Of a stretch of DNA of 42,940 nucleotides, positions 16,074 to 25,840 are shown piece by piece. The stretch is taken from positions 1-42,940 of the forward strand of contig JADGNP010000003.1 of assembly GCA_017883425.1 (NCBI GenBank), read 5' to 3'. The translations under genes and the position numbers were made by a program. The DNA is from Candidatus Sulfotelmatobacter sp. Its GTDB lineage: Bacteria > Acidobacteriota > Terriglobia > Terriglobales > Acidobacteriaceae. Every line of letters begins with the position of its first letter. Position 1 is the stretch's first letter. The notes beneath the pieces are model-generated. The model worked only from the letters and a program-made list of their open reading frames with translations. It was not told the origin of the DNA and did not search any database.

Positions 16074-17051
16074 TTAAGGAAGGTCCTCAGAACATAAGGC
16101 CGCGCCTCCAGCAATTCCTGCGTCTGCCCCGTAATGAGCCATCAACAGCGGAATATCGGAGGCGCGTGGATTCACGCACCAACTCGGAAGGCGATTCTTG
16201 ATGTCATCGAAAAACGGTTTAAGCATCGCCGCCACGCCGCCGCCCATCACCAGAACGTCAGGGTCGAGCAGATCGACGATGTTGCCGAGCCAGGGTGTTA
16301 AGACCTCGACCGTCTCGATAAGAATTTCCCGCGCCAACGGATCGCCAGCGACATAAGCCTGTCCCACCAATTCGCTGGTGACGGCGGCAACGTCTCCCTT
16401 GGCCAATTCGAGAATGGTGGAGCGAGAATGCCCTGCGGCGAGCTTGGTTCGGGCGCGGGAGCCAATCGCCGGACCGGCCGCCAGCACTTCAATGCATCCA
16501 CGTTTGCCGCAGCTGCAAAGCGGGCCATGATAGTCGATGCTCACGTGGCCGCCCTCGCCGGCGGAGCCGGTATTGCCGTGGTAGATGCGGCCGTCCAGAA
16601 CAATGCCGGTTCCAATCCCGGTTCCAATCGTGGCATAGAAAACGTAGCGGAATCCACGTGCCGCGCCCCAGCGCGTTTCCGCGAGCGCGGCGGCGTTCGC
16701 GTCGTTGTCCACTTTGACGGGGACTCGATACATCGAAGTGATTTTCTCAGCCAGCGGAAAGTTCCGCCAGCAGGGTAGATTTGGAGGATTGAGAACTATG
16801 CCGGTCTTCGGGTCCAGCGGTCCGGGCGCGCAAATCCCGATGCTGTGAATGCCGCCTGGCGCCGAGGATGCCAAGGAATCAATGGCGCCGGTGACTGCCT
16901 GAAAAGCAGCCTCGGCCGTGCCGTTTGCCACCATGGGCTTGCGGCCCTGCGTGAGTATCTTCCCGTCTCGGTCCACGAGTCCAACCGCGACTTTGGTGCC
17001 GCCGATATCGACGCCGAGAATTGGGCCGCTACGCTTTGAGTTTTCCGTCAC
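16074..17051 (-). CDS. ROK-family sugar kinase (glucokinase-like)
   Basis: GVDIGGTKVAVGLVD ATP-binding motif; CSCGKRGCIEVLAAGPAI zinc motif; GTGIGTGIVLDGRIYHGNTGSAGEGGHVSID. Confidence 0.93.
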   Translation of the reverse strand: MTENSKRSGPILGVDIGGTKVAVGLVDRDGKILTQGRKPMVANGTAEAAFQAVTGAIDSLASSAPGGIHSIGICAPGPLDPKTGIVLNPPNLPCWRNFPLAEKITSMYRVPVKVDNDANAAALAETRWGAARGFRYVFYATIGTGIGTGIVLDGRIYHGNTGSAGEGGHVSIDYHGPLCSCGKRGCIEVLAAGPAIGSRARTKLAAGHSRSTILELAKGDVAAVTSELVGQAYVAGDPLAREILIETVEVLTPWLGNIVDLLDPDVLVMGGGVAAMLKPFFDDIKNRLPSWCVNPRASDIPLLMAHYGADAGIAGGAALCSEDLP

Positions 17052-20000
17052 GGTTTGGCCGTCGCCGCGATCTGCGGTATCCCAGAGAAGCGCACCTTGA
17101 TGGTCTTAATCTCGTACGGTTTCGTGTGCAACGTAACGGCGCCATCGTGCACCGAAACGCTGGCAATCGCTCTTTCCATCAGATCGGTCTCCGCCGCAGA
17201 CTCTGCTCCCGGAGGAAGTTGAATTGTAGCCTCACCATCCTTACCGGCCCATTCGTAGAAGCGCACCACCAGCGTATTCTCGTCCTCCGCTTTCTTCAGC
17301 GCGGTCACGATGACGTTGTCCGGTTGCGCCTGCACGAAAGAATGCTCGGCCGCGAGCGCTCCCTGATGCTTTCCGAACGGCATAGAAATCAATTTGTAGT
17401 TCAGTTCATAACCACGCCGGATGGTGAGCGCATCCTTCCAGCCTCCACCGTGGGGATACAGCGAGTACGTGAACTCATGATGGCCCTCGTCGGCATGAGG
17501 GTCCGGCCACTCCGGAGACCGCAGCAGCGACAAACGAAGCACATTCCCTTTCGCGTCGTAACCATATTTACAGTCATTCAGCAGGCTGAACCCGTGCTTG
17601 GAGTCCGAGATGTCAGCCCAGCGCTGCGCCGGAACTTCAAACTGCGCCAACTCCGCGGGCGTATTTCGCGTGGTGGGACGTTCCACGGAGCCAAATGGAA
17701 TTTCAAACGCCGCTTTGTCACTGTGCGCGCTGACCGGGAACGCCACCTTCAGCAGAATATGCTTCTCATGCCATTCGGCCATCATCTTCACATCGACACG
17801 AGGCACGCCCGCGTACATGATGATATCTCGCAAGAAAGTCGAATTCTGGAAATGATTCTTGATTCGGATGATGGCTCGCAGCGGGCCGCTCTCCATGAGC
17901 TTCACTTCATCGGCCTTGTCCAGATCCCAGTGCTGCTTTTCGAAGTCCGCGTCAATATTCCACGCGTCCCACTGCTGGGGCTTATCGACGAAGGTCTGCA
18001 GCAGGTTGCCGCAGGTTGAAGTCTTGGGGCCACCCGTGTCGGTTTCCGCGGGGGCAAGCGCTTCTGTGCCGCTTCGCTTGTCAAACAGGCTGGTCATGCA
18101 GCCCGTTTGCGGATCGATCTTCACGCGGATGAATTCGTTCTCCAGCGTGTCGGAGGAAGCCTTCAGCATCGAGTGAACCGCAGGCGCCGCAGTTGCAGCG
18201 CGCACGAAATAGGTCTGGTATCCAAGGGACGGCGTGCTCGATAGCAATAAGAAGTGGGCGCGGTGAGTTTCCGCATCGAGGGAGACTAGTTGCGACTCTG
18301 CCGGCTTTCCCGTGGAATCCACTACCTCGATCTGGCGGGTTGGTGCGGGCAGTTGCACGTCAACCTCAGCCACTTCGGTGCGCGGCCACGACAGGGAATT
18401 GAAAATCAGTATCGGCGCCCCCTCGCCTTGCGTGTTGACGTGCGCGGCGATCTCGCGGAGGGACCCCATGGCAACGTCGTTCGCGGTGCGGTCGACATTT
18501 TCCAGGCTGCGTTTGGCGTCCAAGTAATTCACCGCGATACCGGAGCCCGGCATGATGTCGTGGAAGTGCTCGAACAGCAGATTCTTCCAGGTCAGTTCCA
18601 TCTCGTCTTGTGGATAAGGGCGCCCGTAGAGCAAGGCCAGCGAAGCAAACTTCTCAGCATTGAGTACTGTTTCCTCGGCGCGGCGGATTCTCCGCTTGGT
18701 TTCGGCCTGGGTCGTGAAGACTCCGCGGTGATAGGCGAAATAGAGCTCACCATCCCACGTCGGAACCTGCATGCTGGGAAGCTTCTTCTCCAGATCGCTG
18801 AAGAAGTCGCGCGCGAAACTAAACTCGAGTTTCGGATACACCGCACCCGAAGCCTTCAGTTGCTCGGCATGATCGAGCATGACGCGGGTTGGCCCGCCGC
18901 CGTGGTCGCCCACGCCATAGAGGTGCATCATCTCAGGTTTGTCGGGAACGCTCTTGCCGTAGATCGACGGCATCCAGATCGAGAGGTCGGTTGCGAGCGG
19001 CTCCGCATCGATGCCGCCAGCGTAGTCATGCGGGAAATAAGTGAGCAAACGGCTGCCGTCCGGCGCCTGCCACCAGAACAGCTTGTAAGGGAACGTGGTG
19101 AACTCGTGCGCCCAGAGCAGCTTCTGGGTGACGAAATAATCCATGCCCGACTTCTTATAGATCTGCGGGAGTTGATAGTTGTATCCAAACGAATCCGGGT
19201 TCCACCCGATTTTCACGTCCACGCCAAAATTCTTCTGAAAGTAACGCTTGCCCACCAGAATCTGGCGGACCAGAGACTCGCCGTCCGGCATATTCAGGTC
19301 GGGCTCGACCCACATGCCGCCGATGATCTCCCACCGGCCTTCCTTGACGCGCTTCTCGATCTGCTGGAAGAGGTCGGGATATTTCTCTTGCATCCACTCG
19401 TAGGTGCGCGCCGAGGACATGGTGAACTTGAAGTCCGGATACTCGCGCATTAGATCGAGCACGCTCTGGAACGTGTTGCGTACCACTTCCACGGTCTCGG
19501 TCCACGGCCACAGCCACGCCATGTCAATGTGCGAGTTGCCCACGATACGGATGTTGAACTTCTGCAGAAAGGGCTTGAGCGCTTCCAACTTGGCATGAGC
19601 CGCTTTGAGCGACGCATCAAAGCCGGCCTGATCCCCTCGATCCAACGGCGAGAAATCAATCGCCTTCAGGGCCGCTTCGAGTCGTTGTTGACGTTCAGCC
19701 TTTCCTTCTTCATAGGCAGCGATGATGGGACGGGCAGACAGAAGTTCCATCCGCAGAAAAGCGGGGTCCGGGCGCGCGTGCGGTGGTTCGAGCGTGAGTT
19801 CGCTGTGAAAGAATTCGGATTGAGCTTCGTCTCCTGCGACTACTCTCGCCGCGACCAGAAACTTCTGCCCCGGCTGCGCGTTCTCCGTCAAAAGCATGGG
19901 CAGAATATCGTCGTCGCTGCCGCGATAGAGAATCGCTCCGTTCGAGAAGACGGTGATCCTCAAGCTTTGCGGACTCCCGAAGCGCAGATCCATCGACACC

Positions 20001-20338
20001 CGTGAGCCTTGCGTCGCATAGCCATGAATCTTCTCGGGAATCTGAATCCACCGGCGGAACACGCGGGTTCCCGCCCAATGCTCCTCGTTCGCATTCCTTC
20101 CGCCTGGCTCCGACGCATTCTTCACGGTGAGCAGGCCCCAGTCGGAGTCGTTCAGCCCCGGATCTTCTGGATGGGGAACGTCAGCATGAAAGCGCCATTC
20201 GGCTTCGTCCAGACGGGTGAGCGTTTCTAGCCGGTCGAGTGTCGGCTTATAAGGATCGGGGACAGGAGAAGTCTGGGAAACCGCAAAAGCCGCGTGCATC
20301 ACAATCACGAGTATTAAGAAGATAGCGGAACGCTTCAT
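17048..20338 (-). CDS. Glycoside hydrolase family 38 alpha-mannosidase, exported
   Basis: 'NSHIDMAWLWPWTETVEVVRNTFQSVLDLM' and 'KIGWNPDSFGYNYQLPQIYKKSGMDYFVTQKL' typical of GH38; signal MKRSAIFLILVIVMHAAFAVSQ. Confidence 0.9.
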   Translation of the reverse strand: MKRSAIFLILVIVMHAAFAVSQTSPVPDPYKPTLDRLETLTRLDEAEWRFHADVPHPEDPGLNDSDWGLLTVKNASEPGGRNANEEHWAGTRVFRRWIQIPEKIHGYATQGSRVSMDLRFGSPQSLRITVFSNGAILYRGSDDDILPMLLTENAQPGQKFLVAARVVAGDEAQSEFFHSELTLEPPHARPDPAFLRMELLSARPIIAAYEEGKAERQQRLEAALKAIDFSPLDRGDQAGFDASLKAAHAKLEALKPFLQKFNIRIVGNSHIDMAWLWPWTETVEVVRNTFQSVLDLMREYPDFKFTMSSARTYEWMQEKYPDLFQQIEKRVKEGRWEIIGGMWVEPDLNMPDGESLVRQILVGKRYFQKNFGVDVKIGWNPDSFGYNYQLPQIYKKSGMDYFVTQKLLWAHEFTTFPYKLFWWQAPDGSRLLTYFPHDYAGGIDAEPLATDLSIWMPSIYGKSVPDKPEMMHLYGVGDHGGGPTRVMLDHAEQLKASGAVYPKLEFSFARDFFSDLEKKLPSMQVPTWDGELYFAYHRGVFTTQAETKRRIRRAEETVLNAEKFASLALLYGRPYPQDEMELTWKNLLFEHFHDIMPGSGIAVNYLDAKRSLENVDRTANDVAMGSLREIAAHVNTQGEGAPILIFNSLSWPRTEVAEVDVQLPAPTRQIEVVDSTGKPAESQLVSLDAETHRAHFLLLSSTPSLGYQTYFVRAATAAPAVHSMLKASSDTLENEFIRVKIDPQTGCMTSLFDKRSGTEALAPAETDTGGPKTSTCGNLLQTFVDKPQQWDAWNIDADFEKQHWDLDKADEVKLMESGPLRAIIRIKNHFQNSTFLRDIIMYAGVPRVDVKMMAEWHEKHILLKVAFPVSAHSDKAAFEIPFGSVERPTTRNTPAELAQFEVPAQRWADISDSKHGFSLLNDCKYGYDAKGNVLRLSLLRSPEWPDPHADEGHHEFTYSLYPHGGGWKDALTIRRGYELNYKLISMPFGKHQGALAAEHSFVQAQPDNVIVTALKKAEDENTLVVRFYEWAGKDGEATIQLPPGAESAAETDLMERAIASVSVHDGAVTLHTKPYEIKTIKVRFSGIPQIAATAKP

Positions 20339-20530
20339 CGAGAACGCACCTTTCCGAGCGAGGCCAGACTGCAACAGCAGTCTTTGCAGGCAACCAAAGA
20401 TTATCACTCAACAATTGTTTGGAAGCCTAAGTTGCTGATTCTACAGCGAGGTTACGCCGCCTGCGCGCGGCCTGCAAAAATTGTGATTCCTTCCATGCAA
20501 ATTATGAATCGAAGTTGTTACGTAAGATTG

Positions 20531-20559
20531 TTGACGGCACAAGCCGTTCAACTTAGAAT
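20531..20559 (+). promoter_or_regulatory. Sigma70-like promoter of the Cys-leader/sulfur operon
   Basis: TTGACG (20531-20536), 17-nt spacer, TAGAAT (20554-20559). Near-palindrome TTGACGGC-ACAA-GCCGTTCAA overlaps the -35 element and spacer. Confidence 0.65.
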
Positions 20560-20569
20560 CCAGACTCCA

Positions 20570-20662
20570 ATGTCAGATAGCTGCAATCTTCGCGCGTTGT
20601 GCTGCTGCACTTGTTGTTGTTGTGCATGCGTGTGCGCTGGCGCGGGGAGGCTGCTGACCTAA
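20570..20662 (+). CDS. Polycysteine leader peptide (candidate cysteine attenuator uORF)
   Basis: ATG..TAA encodes MSDSCNLRALCCCTCCCCACVCAGAGRLLT, 10 Cys in 30 codons (TGCTGCTGC ACT TGTTGTTGTTGT GCA TGC GTG TGC). ATG is 10 nt after the -10 hexamer. Located directly upstream of a terminator and a sulfur-assimilation operon. Confidence 0.8.
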   Translation: MSDSCNLRALCCCTCCCCACVCAGAGRLLT

Positions 20663-20690
20663 GAATTCGTTCTTAACATCGGCACTCATC

Positions 20691-20730
20691 AACCCATCGC
20701 CAGACGAACTGGCGGTGGGTTTTTTGTTTT
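20691..20730 (+). terminator. Intrinsic terminator between Cys leader and sulfite reductase (candidate attenuator)
   Basis: AACCCATCGCCAG-ACGAA-CTGGCGGTGGGTT: 13-bp stem with one T-G pair, followed by TTTTTTGTTTT. Confidence 0.88.
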
Positions 20731-20762
20731 CCGGATATTAACTTTCCAGACCCCAAACTCCT

Positions 20763-22481
20763 ATGACAAACGCAGCGAAAGAAACCAAAGCACAACGAGT
20801 CGAGCGCCTGAAGCGCGCCCAGAACCCATGGGAGGGGCTGGAGGAAATCCGGCGCTTTGCCCGCGAGGGATTCGAATCCATCCCCCCCGAATGGATCGGG
20901 ACCTACTTCCGCTGGTGGGGCGTTTACACCCAGGGGGATGGTGCGGGAGTCACCGGCGGCCAGAATGGGGAAGGCCGGGCGTTGCAGCGTTTCATGGTGC
21001 GCATTCGCATTCCCAACGGCATGATGAGTTCCCGGCAACTGCGGGCCATTGCCGACCTCACTCGCCGCCACGCCAACGGAATCGCCGACCTTACCGTTCG
21101 TCAAAACATTCAACTGCATTGGATCACCATCGAATCGCTGCCGGAAGTGCTCGACGGCCTCTGGCAAGTCGGGCTGAATACGACCGGAGCCTGCGGTGAC
21201 GTCGTGCGCAATGTGACCGGATGCCCGGTTGCGGGGGTGGATGCGGACGAAATCGTCGACGCTTCGCCACTTGTTCTGGAAGCATCGCGACTGCTGGCGG
21301 GGAATGCCGACTTCTACAACCTGCCGCGCAAATTCAAAATCTCGATTACTGGATGCCGCGTGTGGTGTCCCTATCCCGAAATCAATGACGTGGGCCTGAC
21401 CGCACTGACTCGCACGGTTGGCGGAGAGCCGGAGGTCGGCTTCTCCCTGCGAGTCGCCGGCGGGCTTTCGACGGAACCCTATCTCGGAGCGCGCCTGAAT
21501 GCATTTGTCCGCTGGAACCAGGTTCTGCCCGTGATCAGAGGGATTGCCGAGTTGTTCCGCGACTCCGACGTGTTGCGCGAACACCGCGAACGCGCCCGGC
21601 TGAAATTCCTCTTCTTGCGGCACGGATGGACCGCAGACCGTTTTCTGGGCGAACTGCAAGAGCGCATCGGATTCCAGCTTGATCCCGCGGTCGAAGAGCG
21701 TCCTCCCGACGATGTCTACCGCGATCATGTGGGCATTCATGCGCAGAAGCAGTCCGGTCTCTCTTACGTGGGAGCGGTTGCGCTCCGCGGCCGAATCACC
21801 GCGGAACAGATGCAGTCGGCTGCGGATCTCGCCGAGCGCTATGCCGGCGGCGAATTGCGTGCCACCAACATGCAGAACCTCCTCGTCGTAAACGTGCCCA
21901 CCCTCAACGCGGAAGTGCTGGCGGGGGAATTCAACGCGATCGGATTGAAAGTCGGCGGTTCCGCCTTCTGGCGCGGCACGGTGGCGTGCAGCGGGACGGA
22001 GTTCTGCAAGCTTGCCATCACGGAGACGAAGAGCTTCTCCCGTTGGCTCGTAGAAGAACTGGAAGAACGTTTGCCCGGCTTTGATCAGCATCTGAAACTG
22101 CACGTCACGGGATGCCCCAACAGTTGCGGACAGCACTGGATCGCCGACATCGGCATTGAAGGCAAGAAGATCAAGGTTCATGACCGCATGGTCGATGCCT
22201 ACTACTTCTGCGTGGGCGGAGCGCTTGGTCTCCATCAAGCTACGGCGCGACCCGTCGGGTATCGCTGCGCCGCAACCGACGTGCCGGATGCGCTCGAACG
22301 TCTGCTGGGGCGATACCTGGCGCAGCGCGAACCGGGCGAAAATCTGCGCCGGTTCTTTGTGCGTCACAGCGACACGGAGTTGCGCGAGTTTCTGGCCGGA
22401 GAAGTCGTGGCCGCGGTAGCTCGCGATTTGCCGGACCCGACTCGGGGTCTGTCGCAATCAGCAGGAGGAATCGGTGACTAA
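20763..22481 (+). CDS. Siroheme/4Fe-4S nitrite/sulfite reductase, probably assimilatory sulfite reductase
   Basis: 'RGFESIPPEWIGTYFRWWGVYTQ', 'LTVRQNIQLHWITIESLPEVLDGL', cluster motifs 'VACSGTEFCKLAITETK' and 'VTGCPNSCGQHWIADIG'. Neighbours are siroheme synthesis genes and cysH. Confidence 0.9.
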   Translation: MTNAAKETKAQRVERLKRAQNPWEGLEEIRRFAREGFESIPPEWIGTYFRWWGVYTQGDGAGVTGGQNGEGRALQRFMVRIRIPNGMMSSRQLRAIADLTRRHANGIADLTVRQNIQLHWITIESLPEVLDGLWQVGLNTTGACGDVVRNVTGCPVAGVDADEIVDASPLVLEASRLLAGNADFYNLPRKFKISITGCRVWCPYPEINDVGLTALTRTVGGEPEVGFSLRVAGGLSTEPYLGARLNAFVRWNQVLPVIRGIAELFRDSDVLREHRERARLKFLFLRHGWTADRFLGELQERIGFQLDPAVEERPPDDVYRDHVGIHAQKQSGLSYVGAVALRGRITAEQMQSAADLAERYAGGELRATNMQNLLVVNVPTLNAEVLAGEFNAIGLKVGGSAFWRGTVACSGTEFCKLAITETKSFSRWLVEELEERLPGFDQHLKLHVTGCPNSCGQHWIADIGIEGKKIKVHDRMVDAYYFCVGGALGLHQATARPVGYRCAATDVPDALERLLGRYLAQREPGENLRRFFVRHSDTELREFLAGEVVAAVARDLPDPTRGLSQSAGGIGD

Positions 22482-23094
22482 CTTGTTTCCCATGTTTCTG
22501 AAGCTGGAAGGCAGGCAATGCCTGGTCGTGGGCGCCGGGAAAGTCGGCGAACCAAAGATCGGCGGCCTGCTTGAGACGGGTGCGCGACTCCGCGTGGTTG
22601 CTCTCGATGCAAGTCCCACGGTCCGCGAATGGGCGCGGGCTGGAAAGCTCGACCTCGAGTTGCGTGCCTTCTCGGCGGAAGACCTGGACGGCGCGTTCCT
22701 GGCAGTTGTGGCGACGAATTCACGCAGCCTGAATGAGCGCGTCTATCACGAGGCGCGGAACCGTGGCGTGCTGTGCAATGTGGTCGATGTTCCTGATCTC
22801 TGCGATTTCTTCTATCCCGCCGTCGTGCGCCGCGGCGATCTGCAAATCGCCATTTCAACCGCCGGACAGAGTCCATCGCTGGCCCAGAAAATTCGCCAAC
22901 AGCTTGAAAAACAATTTGGCCCCGGATACGCCGCGTGGGTGGCGGAACTCGGCGAGACTCGAAAACTGATTCTCGCCAGCGATCTTGCCAAAGAACGCAA
23001 GCTGGACCTGTTGCATTCGCTGGCGAGCAGGGAAGCGCTGGAAGCAGCCCTGGCTCAGACCCCCGAACTAGCCGCAAAAGGAGAGGGAGCATGA
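22474..23094 (+). CDS. Precorrin-2 dehydrogenase/sirohydrochlorin ferrochelatase (CysG N-domain/Met8-like)
   Basis: MTNLFPMFLKLEGRQCLVVGAGKVGEPKIGGLLETGARLRVVA; 'NSRSLNERVYHEARNRGVLCNVVDVPDLCDFFYPAVVRRGDLQIAISTAGQSPSLAQKIRQQLE'. GTG start. Confidence 0.9.
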   Translation: MTNLFPMFLKLEGRQCLVVGAGKVGEPKIGGLLETGARLRVVALDASPTVREWARAGKLDLELRAFSAEDLDGAFLAVVATNSRSLNERVYHEARNRGVLCNVVDVPDLCDFFYPAVVRRGDLQIAISTAGQSPSLAQKIRQQLEKQFGPGYAAWVAELGETRKLILASDLAKERKLDLLHSLASREALEAALAQTPELAAKGEGA

Positions 23095-23930
23095 AAGGCA
23101 AGGTTTATCTAGTTGGCGCTGGGCCGGGCGACCCGGAGTTGCTCACCCTGAAAGCGCTACGCGTGCTGAAAACGGCCGATGCTGTGCTGCACGACGACCT
23201 GGTCGCTCCCGAGATATTGAAACTCATCCCTTCCACGGCGCAGATGCACAACGTCGGCAAGCGCTGCGGCAAGAAAAAGATTCGGCAGGAGGAAATCAAT
23301 TTTCTCATGGTCGCGCTCGCGGACTCCGGACTGCGGGTCGTCCGGCTGAAGAGTGGCGATCCGCTGATCTTCGGACGAGCCGGGGAAGAAATCGAATCGC
23401 TGCGCAGGGCCAACATCCCCTTCGAGATTGTGCCGGGCGTGACTTCCGCCCTGGGCGCGGCAGCCGCAGCGCAGATCCCGTTGACCCATCGCCGCGCGTC
23501 GTCCGCCCTTGTATTCATCACTGCGCATCAGGCCCCTGGAAGCGACGCCGCAAACTGGGGCAAGCTGGCCGGAAGCGGGGCGACGCTGGTGATCTATATG
23601 CCCGGACAGAACTACTGCGAGGTTGCCGCGAAGCTGAAGGCGGCTGGGCTTGCCGGCGAGACGCCCTGTGCCGTCATCTCGCGTGCGACAACCCCGCACC
23701 AGCGAGCCCACCGTTCCACGATCGCCGAGTTGTCTCGCTCGCCGAAGCTCGCCGCTCCCACGCTGCTGGTCGTGGGAGAAGTCGTGCGCTTTACCGATCC
23801 TGTAGCCCTCGCGCAGCAACTTGGAGTGCCGGGTATTTCCGCGGGCAACGACAGCCCTCTTGCCACCGTACTATTTGCGGATCCCCCTTCGGCAGCGGAC
23901 TTCAGAACAAATGAGGAGCCACTCGCGTGA
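23091..23930 (+). CDS. cobA: Uroporphyrinogen-III C-methyltransferase
   Basis: MKGKVYLVGAGPGDPELLTLKALRVLKTADAVLHDDLV; 'RLKSGDPLIFGRAGEEIESLRRANIPFEIVPGVTSALGAAAAAQIPLTHR'. Start corrected to ATG 23091, overlapping the upstream stop. Confidence 0.93.
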   Translation: MKGKVYLVGAGPGDPELLTLKALRVLKTADAVLHDDLVAPEILKLIPSTAQMHNVGKRCGKKKIRQEEINFLMVALADSGLRVVRLKSGDPLIFGRAGEEIESLRRANIPFEIVPGVTSALGAAAAAQIPLTHRRASSALVFITAHQAPGSDAANWGKLAGSGATLVIYMPGQNYCEVAAKLKAAGLAGETPCAVISRATTPHQRAHRSTIAELSRSPKLAAPTLLVVGEVVRFTDPVALAQQLGVPGISAGNDSPLATVLFADPPSAADFRTNEEPLA

Positions 23931-24691
23931 AACACCATCTCCAGGACCGTGTTCAAGAGCAGATCGCAGATATTCAGCATGCGGCCGAGCATTGGACTCC
24001 GCAGCACGCTCTGACTTGGGCGTTCGAGACCTTCGGGAACAGTGTGGCCATTTCCTCGGCGTTCGGAGCCGAGGGAATGGTGCTGATCGATATGGCTTCG
24101 CGGGTCCACAGAGACTTCCGCCTTTTCACCATTGACACGGAATTCCTGTTCCCCGAGACCTACAACTTGATGGACAGGATCGAAGAAAAGTACGGCATCG
24201 CGATCGAGAAAGTGTATTCCGTGCTCTCACCCGAAGAGCAGGAACGCAGTCACGGAACGGCGCTGTGGACACGCGATCCCGACCTCTGCTGCAGCCTGCG
24301 GAAAGTCGAACCACTCCGTCGCAAACTCAGCGAGTTGAGCGCGTGGATCACGAGCATTCGCCGCGACCAGACCTCGGTCCGCTCCAGTGCGTGCAGAGTT
24401 GAATGGGATGCCAAGTTCGGCTTGCCGAAGATCAATCCAATTGCCGACTGGACGTCAAAGCAGGTGTGGCGCTACATCCACGACCATGATGTTCCTTACA
24501 ACGCACTTCACAATCAGGACTATCCCAGCATCGGCTGCACGCATTGCACTCGCGCCGTCCGCCCGGGAGAAGATCCGCGTGCGGGACGCTGGCCGGGATT
24601 TGCCAAAACCGAGTGCGGCCTGCACATCATCGAGCCTGTGCCGGGCTCGCCTGCCGCGAGTGCGTCGAAAGCCGCCAAGTTCGGCAACTGA
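23927..24691 (+). CDS. cysH: Assimilatory (phospho)adenylyl-sulfate reductase, probably the 4Fe-4S APS type
   Basis: 'SSAFGAEGMVLIDMA', 'IDTEFLFPETYNLMDRI', 'CCSLRKVEPLRRKL', 'WITSIRRDQTSVR', 'CTHCTRAVRPGEDPRAGRWPGFAKTECGLH'. CC...CxxC pattern is typical of cluster-bearing APS reductases. Confidence 0.93.
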   Translation: MKHHLQDRVQEQIADIQHAAEHWTPQHALTWAFETFGNSVAISSAFGAEGMVLIDMASRVHRDFRLFTIDTEFLFPETYNLMDRIEEKYGIAIEKVYSVLSPEEQERSHGTALWTRDPDLCCSLRKVEPLRRKLSELSAWITSIRRDQTSVRSSACRVEWDAKFGLPKINPIADWTSKQVWRYIHDHDVPYNALHNQDYPSIGCTHCTRAVRPGEDPRAGRWPGFAKTECGLHIIEPVPGSPAASASKAAKFGN

Positions 24692-24937: not shown

Positions 24938-25840
24938 TTAATCGTCCGTCTTTTTCATTTGCGTGGCGAACTGACGCAATAGAGCGACAAACGCAGTGGA
25001 GGCCACCGAGAGCGTTCGGTCGCGCCGGTAGGCAAGTCCCAGTTCGCGGTACAGCACCGCGTCCTCGAGATCAATCAGTTTGACTCGCCCGGCATCCACT
25101 TCATCGCGGGCGAAGGACGCGCTGATGAGCGACACGCCCAGATCCGCCGCCACGAAGCTCTTGATCATGCCGATGCTGGGCAGTTCCATTCGCACCTGCA
25201 GTTCGGCGGCGTGGGGCCGAAACAGCTTATCCAACAGCCGTCGCGTATGTCCCGTCTTCGGAAGCAGCAGAGGATGTTTGACGATCTCGCTGACCGGCAC
25301 CACCTTGAATTTCGCCAGCGGATTCTTGGGGCTCACCATCAACATCAGCTTGTCGCGGAAGATCGGATAGATCTTCAAACTCGGAGATTGGATGGGTAAA
25401 GTCAATATGCCCACCTCCACCTGCCCGTTTTCCAGCTTTTCCACGATTTTGTAGGTGAAGTTCCGGTAGATGCTGATCTGCACCGGGGGATAGCGGCGGC
25501 AATATTCGCCGAAAACCTCGGGCAGAACATACAAACAGGTGGCCTCGTTGGCGCCCACCCGCAGCGTGCCACGCGGGGTGCCGCTGTGGTCGGCGACCGC
25601 CATTAACGATTCGTCCCGCAGACTCTTCAGGCGCTCGGCGTATTCGAAAAACACCTGGCCGGCGGGGGTAAGTTTCACCGTTTTGCCCGAGCGGTCGAGC
25701 AGCCGGTCACCGTATTCCTGCTCCAGTTGACGGATTTGCGCGCTGACCGCCGACTGCGACCGAAAAACCTTCTCCCCGGCGCGCGAAAAGCTACCCTGCC
25801 TGGCAACTTCCAGGAACGTGATGAGCTGATCAAAGTCCAT
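24938..25840 (-). CDS. LysR-family transcriptional regulator
   Basis: MDFDQLITFLEVARQGSFSRAGEKVFRSQSAVSAQIRQLEQEYGDRLLDRSGKTVKLTPAG: classic LysR wHTH. TATAAT -10 candidate at 25855-25860 (complement). Confidence 0.95.
   Translation of the reverse strand: MDFDQLITFLEVARQGSFSRAGEKVFRSQSAVSAQIRQLEQEYGDRLLDRSGKTVKLTPAGQVFFEYAERLKSLRDESLMAVADHSGTPRGTLRVGANEATCLYVLPEVFGEYCRRYPPVQISIYRNFTYKIVEKLENGQVEVGILTLPIQSPSLKIYPIFRDKLMLMVSPKNPLAKFKVVPVSEIVKHPLLLPKTGHTRRLLDKLFRPHAAELQVRMELPSIGMIKSFVAADLGVSLISASFARDEVDAGRVKLIDLEDAVLYRELGLAYRRDRTLSVASTAFVALLRQFATQMKKTDD

Follow-up and report, generated by a model that had tools for sequence, protein, structure and literature searches.

Upstream of cys operons in Mycobacterium and Propionibacterium, and of cbs in Bifidobacterium, short leader ORFs rich in Cys codons and lacking terminators have been predicted (PMC1262725), and the Cys leaders of M. 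smegmatis were reported to be cysteine-responsive (Canestrari 2020, as cited in PMC9094748 and PMC9031893). The attenuators predicted in Acidobacteria are said to lack associated functions, or nearly so (PMC2965389). A cysteine attenuator in Acidobacteria was not found in the literature that we searched, which excludes the 2010 Lopatovskaya survey. Here we describe a leader upstream of a sulfite reductase family gene (sir) that is very likely a ribosome-mediated transcription attenuator sensing Cys-tRNA; its function is experimentally untested. It is located in the window, i.e. the whole stretch of 42,940 nucleotides that was analysed, and its parts are listed below, together with the basis of the assignment where one applies.

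20531..20559, plus strand: promoter-like site TTGACG-17-TAGAAT (same site in relatives; predicted start about 20566-20570)
20570..20662, plus strand: poly-Cys leader ORF (translation, conservation in relatives, shuffle counts)
20572..20595, plus strand: region 1, partner of region 2 in the naked RNA (folding, weak support)
20600..20623, plus strand: main regulatory codons Cys11-13 and Cys15-18 (a stall there frees region 2 in the folds)
20637..20657, plus strand: region 2, antiterminator 5' strand with CUGGCG, GGG and UGCUGA (folding, conservation)
20679..20703, plus strand: region 3, antiterminator 3' strand, from 20691 also the terminator 5' arm
20691..20721, plus strand: intrinsic terminator hairpin, regions 3:4 (folding, compensatory changes)
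20722..20730, plus strand: T tract of the terminator (sequence)
20763..22481, plus strand: sir, ferredoxin-type nitrite/sulfite reductase family (NIR_SIR domains; ATG at 20763)
22474..23094, plus strand: siroheme synthase N-terminal part (Met8-like)
23085..23930, plus strand: tetrapyrrole methylase (uroporphyrinogen III methyltransferase-like)
23927..24691, plus strand: cysH, PAPS/APS reductase

The leader ORF at 20570-20662 (plus strand) has 30 codons, ten of them for Cys; its translation is MSDSCNLRALCCCTCCCCACVCAGAGRLLT and its stop codon is 20660-20662. It sits in the gap between a minus-strand gene (17048-20407) and sir (20763). The terminator stem begins at 20691, 28 nt past the leader stop codon, and consists of 13 pairs with a loop of 5 and the tail TTTTGTTTTC, at about -23 kcal/mol. 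The gene order downstream is sir-met8-methylase-cysH. This layout (a 30-codon ORF with ten Cys codons, 28 nt, a 13-bp terminator and then the sir ATG) had been described in an earlier note on the window, and it held when the sequence was re-checked. None of the Rfam covariance models matched the leader at the gathering score, nor was there a credible weak match. We also observe a LysR-type regulator gene on the minus strand (24938-25840), convergent with the sir operon.

The Cys-rich ORF and its start upstream of sir

Searching with the sir protein, we obtained 80 loci. Most are from Acidobacteriota (labelled Acidobacteriaceae, Ca. Sulfotelmatobacter or Terriglobia), and Rokubacteria and Methylomirabilota served as outgroups. 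We counted ORFs with an ATG start and 8-45 codons that end 50-300 nt upstream of sir, and used dinucleotide shuffles as the null. An ORF with at least three Cys in six codons precedes 49 of 55 Acidobacteriota sir genes, as compared to 1.1 expected from the shuffles, and the stricter threshold of at least four Cys in six codons is reached at 40 Acidobacteriota loci (0.06 expected). The same search for three or more Cys in six codons upstream of sir found nothing at the 18 Rokubacteria/Methylomirabilota loci. Within the same shuffle test, no other amino acid showed a comparable excess in short ORFs upstream of sir.

Leaders of close relatives are exemplified by MSDSCNFCAMCCCTCCCCACVRTGAGRLLT and MISFSNFRQECMCACCCCAFVCSGGGKLLT, while in distant relatives the Cys runs are nearly all that persists, as in MCCCCGAAGVSSGAGRLLT and MQNICQNAMCTCCCEYTCVSLACCAAPK. 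The N-terminus of the leader peptide and the spacing vary freely among relatives. The in-frame codons of 72 leaders include TGT 278 times, TGC 144 times and TGG 9 times, which is what selection for Cys, and not for a TGT repeat, would leave. The earlier note had named conservation in relatives as a check on its proposal; the check was passed, as the sequences upstream of sir diverge except for the Cys-rich ORF and the terminator.

Some distant loci stand apart. Six labelled as Acidobacteriaceae or found with them (L060, L064, L069, L070, L075 and L076) have very short leaders of the CCRCC type, about 17 codons long, and the region after the stop codon differs (CCTGGGTCT ... TTCC); their antiterminator looks as if it might have been rebuilt. 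L070 (PMKA01000277.1) carries the label Opitutia, Verrucomicrobiota, and has an Acidobacteria-like sir with a CCRCC leader, possibly as a result of transfer or mis-binning.

A promoter-like site was found in 45 of the 72 leaders (5.9 expected), and in 42 leaders the -10 hexamer ends 5-13 nt upstream of the leader ATG, so that the predicted 5' end of the RNA falls on the ATG or only a few nt away. In the window the 3' end of the TTGACG-17-TAGAAT site lies 10 nt upstream of the ATG. In most leaders a Shine-Dalgarno site would thus probably not fit, as far as can be judged from promoter predictions without mapped 5' ends. The promoter spacing may, with the same reservation, agree with a leaderless poly-Cys ORF.

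Terminator, antiterminator and the proposed switch

The terminator shows compensatory change in four pairs among 21 close sequences, a number reached by 0 of 500 shuffles, and on a structure-blind MAFFT alignment it has 31 double-change cells, as compared to 8.5 in shuffles. Terminators were called automatically, wrongly so at a few loci that include L008, L015, L076 and L080; inspection by eye reveals the hairpin at the first two.

The effect of a stalled ribosome was examined on the RNA that is free at the moment when the terminator 5' arm emerges. For stalls from Cys11 to Cys18 this RNA forms the helices CUGGCG/CGCCAG, GGG/CCC and UGCUGA/UCGGCA, with a fold energy of about -26 to -30 kcal/mol. 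With a stall at Cys20 the CUGGCG/CGCCAG helix is gone, leaving a weaker remnant of -15 kcal/mol, and with the ribosome on the stop codon nothing is left of the antiterminator, so that the terminator is able to form. The UGCUGA/UCGGCA helix is compatible with the terminator; what excludes the terminator is the pairing of its arm with CUGGCG and GGG. The terminator was favoured in every fold of the full-length RNA, therefore the switch must be kinetic. Folding during transcription may permit a kinetic choice of the antiterminator, a preference that is itself inferred. In the naked RNA of the window, region 1 (the beginning of the ORF) forms a hairpin with region 2. Each of the 21 close sequences exceeds its shuffles in this respect, if only weakly (mean z only 1.5).

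In the 21 close sequences the antiterminator is 89% paired and its pairs are nearly invariant. Double changes occur in 13 of the 16 pairs among 78 distinct sequences fitted to the model, giving 102 double-change cells where shuffles give 32.5 and slid controls 30-39; we note that this alignment leans towards structure. RNAalifold returned no structure on the structure-blind alignment of the 78 sequences, so pairs were counted directly. On the structure-blind MAFFT alignment the core helix has 90% pairing and 12 double-change cells (2.8 in shuffles, 0 of 500 reaching that value); slid controls have 5-16 such cells with only 33-42% of the cells paired. The outer helix found no support on this alignment.

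The nascent region also folds better than shuffles, with a mean z of about -2.1 in 64 sequences that were not used for building the model, and the values are similar for sir loci picked by the ORF alone. The sequences are related, so these z-scores are not independent. A shuffle test of arm pairing was significant in 8 of 43 cases (p<=0.05) and has low power, because shuffled leaders keep the G-rich make-up; the fold-energy z-scores are more telling. The conserved SGAGRLLT tail of the leader was considered as a peptide signal and dropped, since it coincides with region 2: the tail encodes that region and is better explained as RNA.

In the mechanism that we propose, transcription would begin at the leader ATG or a few nt before it, and a ribosome would translate the leader behind the RNA polymerase. 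If Cys-tRNA is ample, the ribosome would run to the stop codon and cover region 2, the terminator would form and the RNA would end before sir. If Cys-tRNA is scarce, the ribosome would stall on Cys11-Cys18 and leave region 2 free to pair with the emerging region 3, which takes up the terminator 5' arm; with the terminator blocked, the polymerase would read into sir-met8-methylase-cysH. Without translation, region 1 would pair with region 2 and the terminator would form, i.e. the predicted default is off. The ORF, the Cys conservation, the terminator, the antiterminator and the recurrence before other sulfur genes (see below) are borne out by sequence. Translation, stalling, the cysteine response and the kinetic preference for the antiterminator are inferred from sequence alone, without expression or ribosome data.

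Related leaders before other genes

A covariance model of the window site, R1, matched 107 of 299 genomes of the class, with two to five sites in many of these, and gave no match in 16 outgroup genomes that have sir. We read 40 of the matches, mostly secondary ones. The genes behind them are cysD (8), two-domain rhodanese (7), sulfite/nitrite reductase family (7), aspartokinase (5), siroheme synthase (4), outer-membrane beta-barrel proteins with a carboxypeptidase-regulatory domain (4), solute-binding proteins (2), and a TauE permease, an ATP sulfurylase and an unassigned protein (1 each). Nearly all of these sites, save those before aspartokinase, have a Cys-rich ORF and a terminator of their own. 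Further cysD, sir, rhodanese, TauE and solute-binding genes came from a second batch. The sequence part of R1 carries the Cys codons and so favours Cys leaders; the identity of the downstream gene is independent of R1. Outside the class matches are rare: there are three marginal ones, but two of these three are plain, MPCCCCCCRPTRPAGGSGMGVR and MVSPACCCCCCCRPTRPTGGSGLGGFIE, both located before cysH and each with a terminator.

This recurrence before sulfur genes likely reflects a cysteine-attenuation regulon, although the response to cysteine is inferred and there are no expression data. The window's own genome has no second good copy of the element, and the relatives' cysD and rhodanese proteins had no match there, so the regulon is described from the relatives.

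Two groups of sites deserve separate mention. At L188:313-480 and L181 a Cys attenuator precedes a small rhodanese gene followed by a gene for an SrpI-type family 2A encapsulin shell (PF19307, relative of PDB 6x8m); this shell family has been linked to sulfur metabolism (PMC8049743). At L120, L132, L133, L135, L149 and L171 Cys attenuators or weak versions of them precede outer-membrane genes, namely beta-barrels (PF25183) and an unassigned porin-like protein. These proteins are conceivable candidates for the uptake of sulfur compounds.

The matches before aspartokinase involve only the 3' part of R1, and their leaders are rich in Thr/Ile, e.g. MATTTIITTTITTTGASGEGRNS. Of 14 further partial matches, 13 lie before aspartokinase-type genes with Thr/Ile leaders and the remaining one (L155) before a semialdehyde dehydrogenase gene. 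In other words, the codons track the pathway and the RNA scaffold is common, as the aspartokinase leaders carry Thr/Ile and not Cys. They probably serve as an internal specificity control for the Cys leaders. The loci with Thr/Ile-rich leaders on this scaffold before aspartokinase-type genes (L115, L116, L119, L129, L148 and L156-L168) are themselves likely, by appearance, to be thr-type attenuators in Acidobacteriota. Attenuator-like matches at L155 and L177 precede genes of the aspartate-semialdehyde dehydrogenase family, and their leaders mix Met, Thr, Cys and His codons.

A bolder reading is that in Acidobacteriota a large part of sulfur assimilation and uptake, with outer-membrane proteins among the targets, is controlled by numerous independent leaderless poly-Cys transcription attenuators, and that one scaffold with exchanged codons (Cys, Thr/Ile) serves different pathways. 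We lean towards this reading without holding it firmly, and with equal caution we would place it above all in the class Terriglobia and, for outliers, in other parts of the phylum.

Alternative explanations and known systems

Four other explanations were considered. In the first, control is by translation attenuation or by Rho: the leader ribosome governs initiation at sir or the access of Rho, and the hairpin is not a working terminator. The leaderless poly-Cys ORFs of mycobacteria do act without intrinsic terminators (PMC1262725, PMC13236596). However, the strong U-tailed hairpin is at a fixed place and shows compensatory changes, and the 5' arm of this hairpin is also the partner of region 2, so we consider this very unlikely. 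Also very unlikely is a metabolite-binding riboswitch with an incidental ORF. A conserved RNA structure upstream of a biosynthetic operon would fit it, but there is no Rfam match, the Cys codons are conserved with synonymous change, and Thr/Ile replaces Cys before aspartokinase genes on the same scaffold. The ORF might also encode a working Cys-rich peptide, e.g. a metal-binding one, given up to ten Cys in 30 residues. Against this, which we regard as very unlikely too, the N-terminus and spacing are free to vary, RNA pairing explains the conserved tail, and every sulfur operon has its own unrelated version. A chance (TGT)n repeat next to the terminator of an upstream transcript is all but excluded: TGTTGTTGTTGT is indeed a short repeat, but conservation (49 of 55 against 1.1) already refutes chance, and the neighbouring upstream gene is on the opposite strand.

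The attenuator reading thus remains the preferred one. Among the marks of a trp-type attenuator are a short leader ORF with clustered codons for the amino acid of the pathway, an intrinsic terminator between this ORF and the first gene, an antiterminator that is incompatible with the terminator and becomes available when a ribosome occupies the regulatory codons, and downstream genes that make the sensed amino acid. All of these are present here, the antiterminator as judged by folding and conservation. A further mark, the region 1:2 hairpin in untranslated RNA, has only weak support, and more read-through when the charged tRNA is scarce is predicted from sequence alone. The earlier note had read the locus as a trp-type attenuator, which is supported, and the mutually exclusive antiterminator, present and conserved, is now added to it; "cysteine-responsive", as it called the element, is still an inference in the absence of expression data. 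Its claim of novelty held in part, as an attenuator with two Cys codons and a terminator had earlier been proposed before cysS of Rhodobacterales (uORFC-8-2, PMC8632094). New here, very likely, is trp-type attenuation with another amino acid, phylum and regulon, a statement that has good sequence support and is experimentally untested.

If this is correct, a dominant soil phylum would gain a class-wide cysteine-sensing regulon that annotators miss, and the earlier note had likewise called the ORF easily missed. The leaders would offer a natural codon-swap series, Cys versus Thr/Ile on one scaffold, and they suggest sulfur functions for unassigned genes, e.g. the outer-membrane proteins behind Cys leaders. 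The element would also bring together leaderless poly-Cys ORFs and trp-type terminators, which had been known apart from each other.

The likeness to each of the known systems is partial. The element shares with uORFC-8-2 a predicted Cys-codon leader with an intrinsic terminator. That system, however, has two Cys codons, belongs to cysS only, in Alphaproteobacteria, and has no sulfur-assimilation regulon; its location before cysS is not met, the gene here being sir and, in relatives, other sulfur genes. Cys runs in a short ORF, predicted in our case to be leaderless, and an association with cys operons link our leaders to the mycobacterial leaderless poly-Cys short ORFs (Seliverstov 2005, PMC1262725; Canestrari 2020), for which a cysteine response has been shown. 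The mycobacterial leaders have no intrinsic terminator, whereas a terminator and an antiterminator are conserved here, so the absence of a terminator is a criterion that our leader does not meet; the resemblance in the leaderless start could be convergence. The enterobacterial trp/his/thr-type attenuators likewise have a leader ORF in which codons for the end product stand in tandem, the alternative hairpins 2:3 and 3:4 as well as 1:2, of which the last is only weakly supported in our leaders, and an intrinsic terminator before the first gene, but here the amino acid is cysteine, the phylum is Acidobacteriota, the start is predicted to be leaderless and the element is common to many operons.
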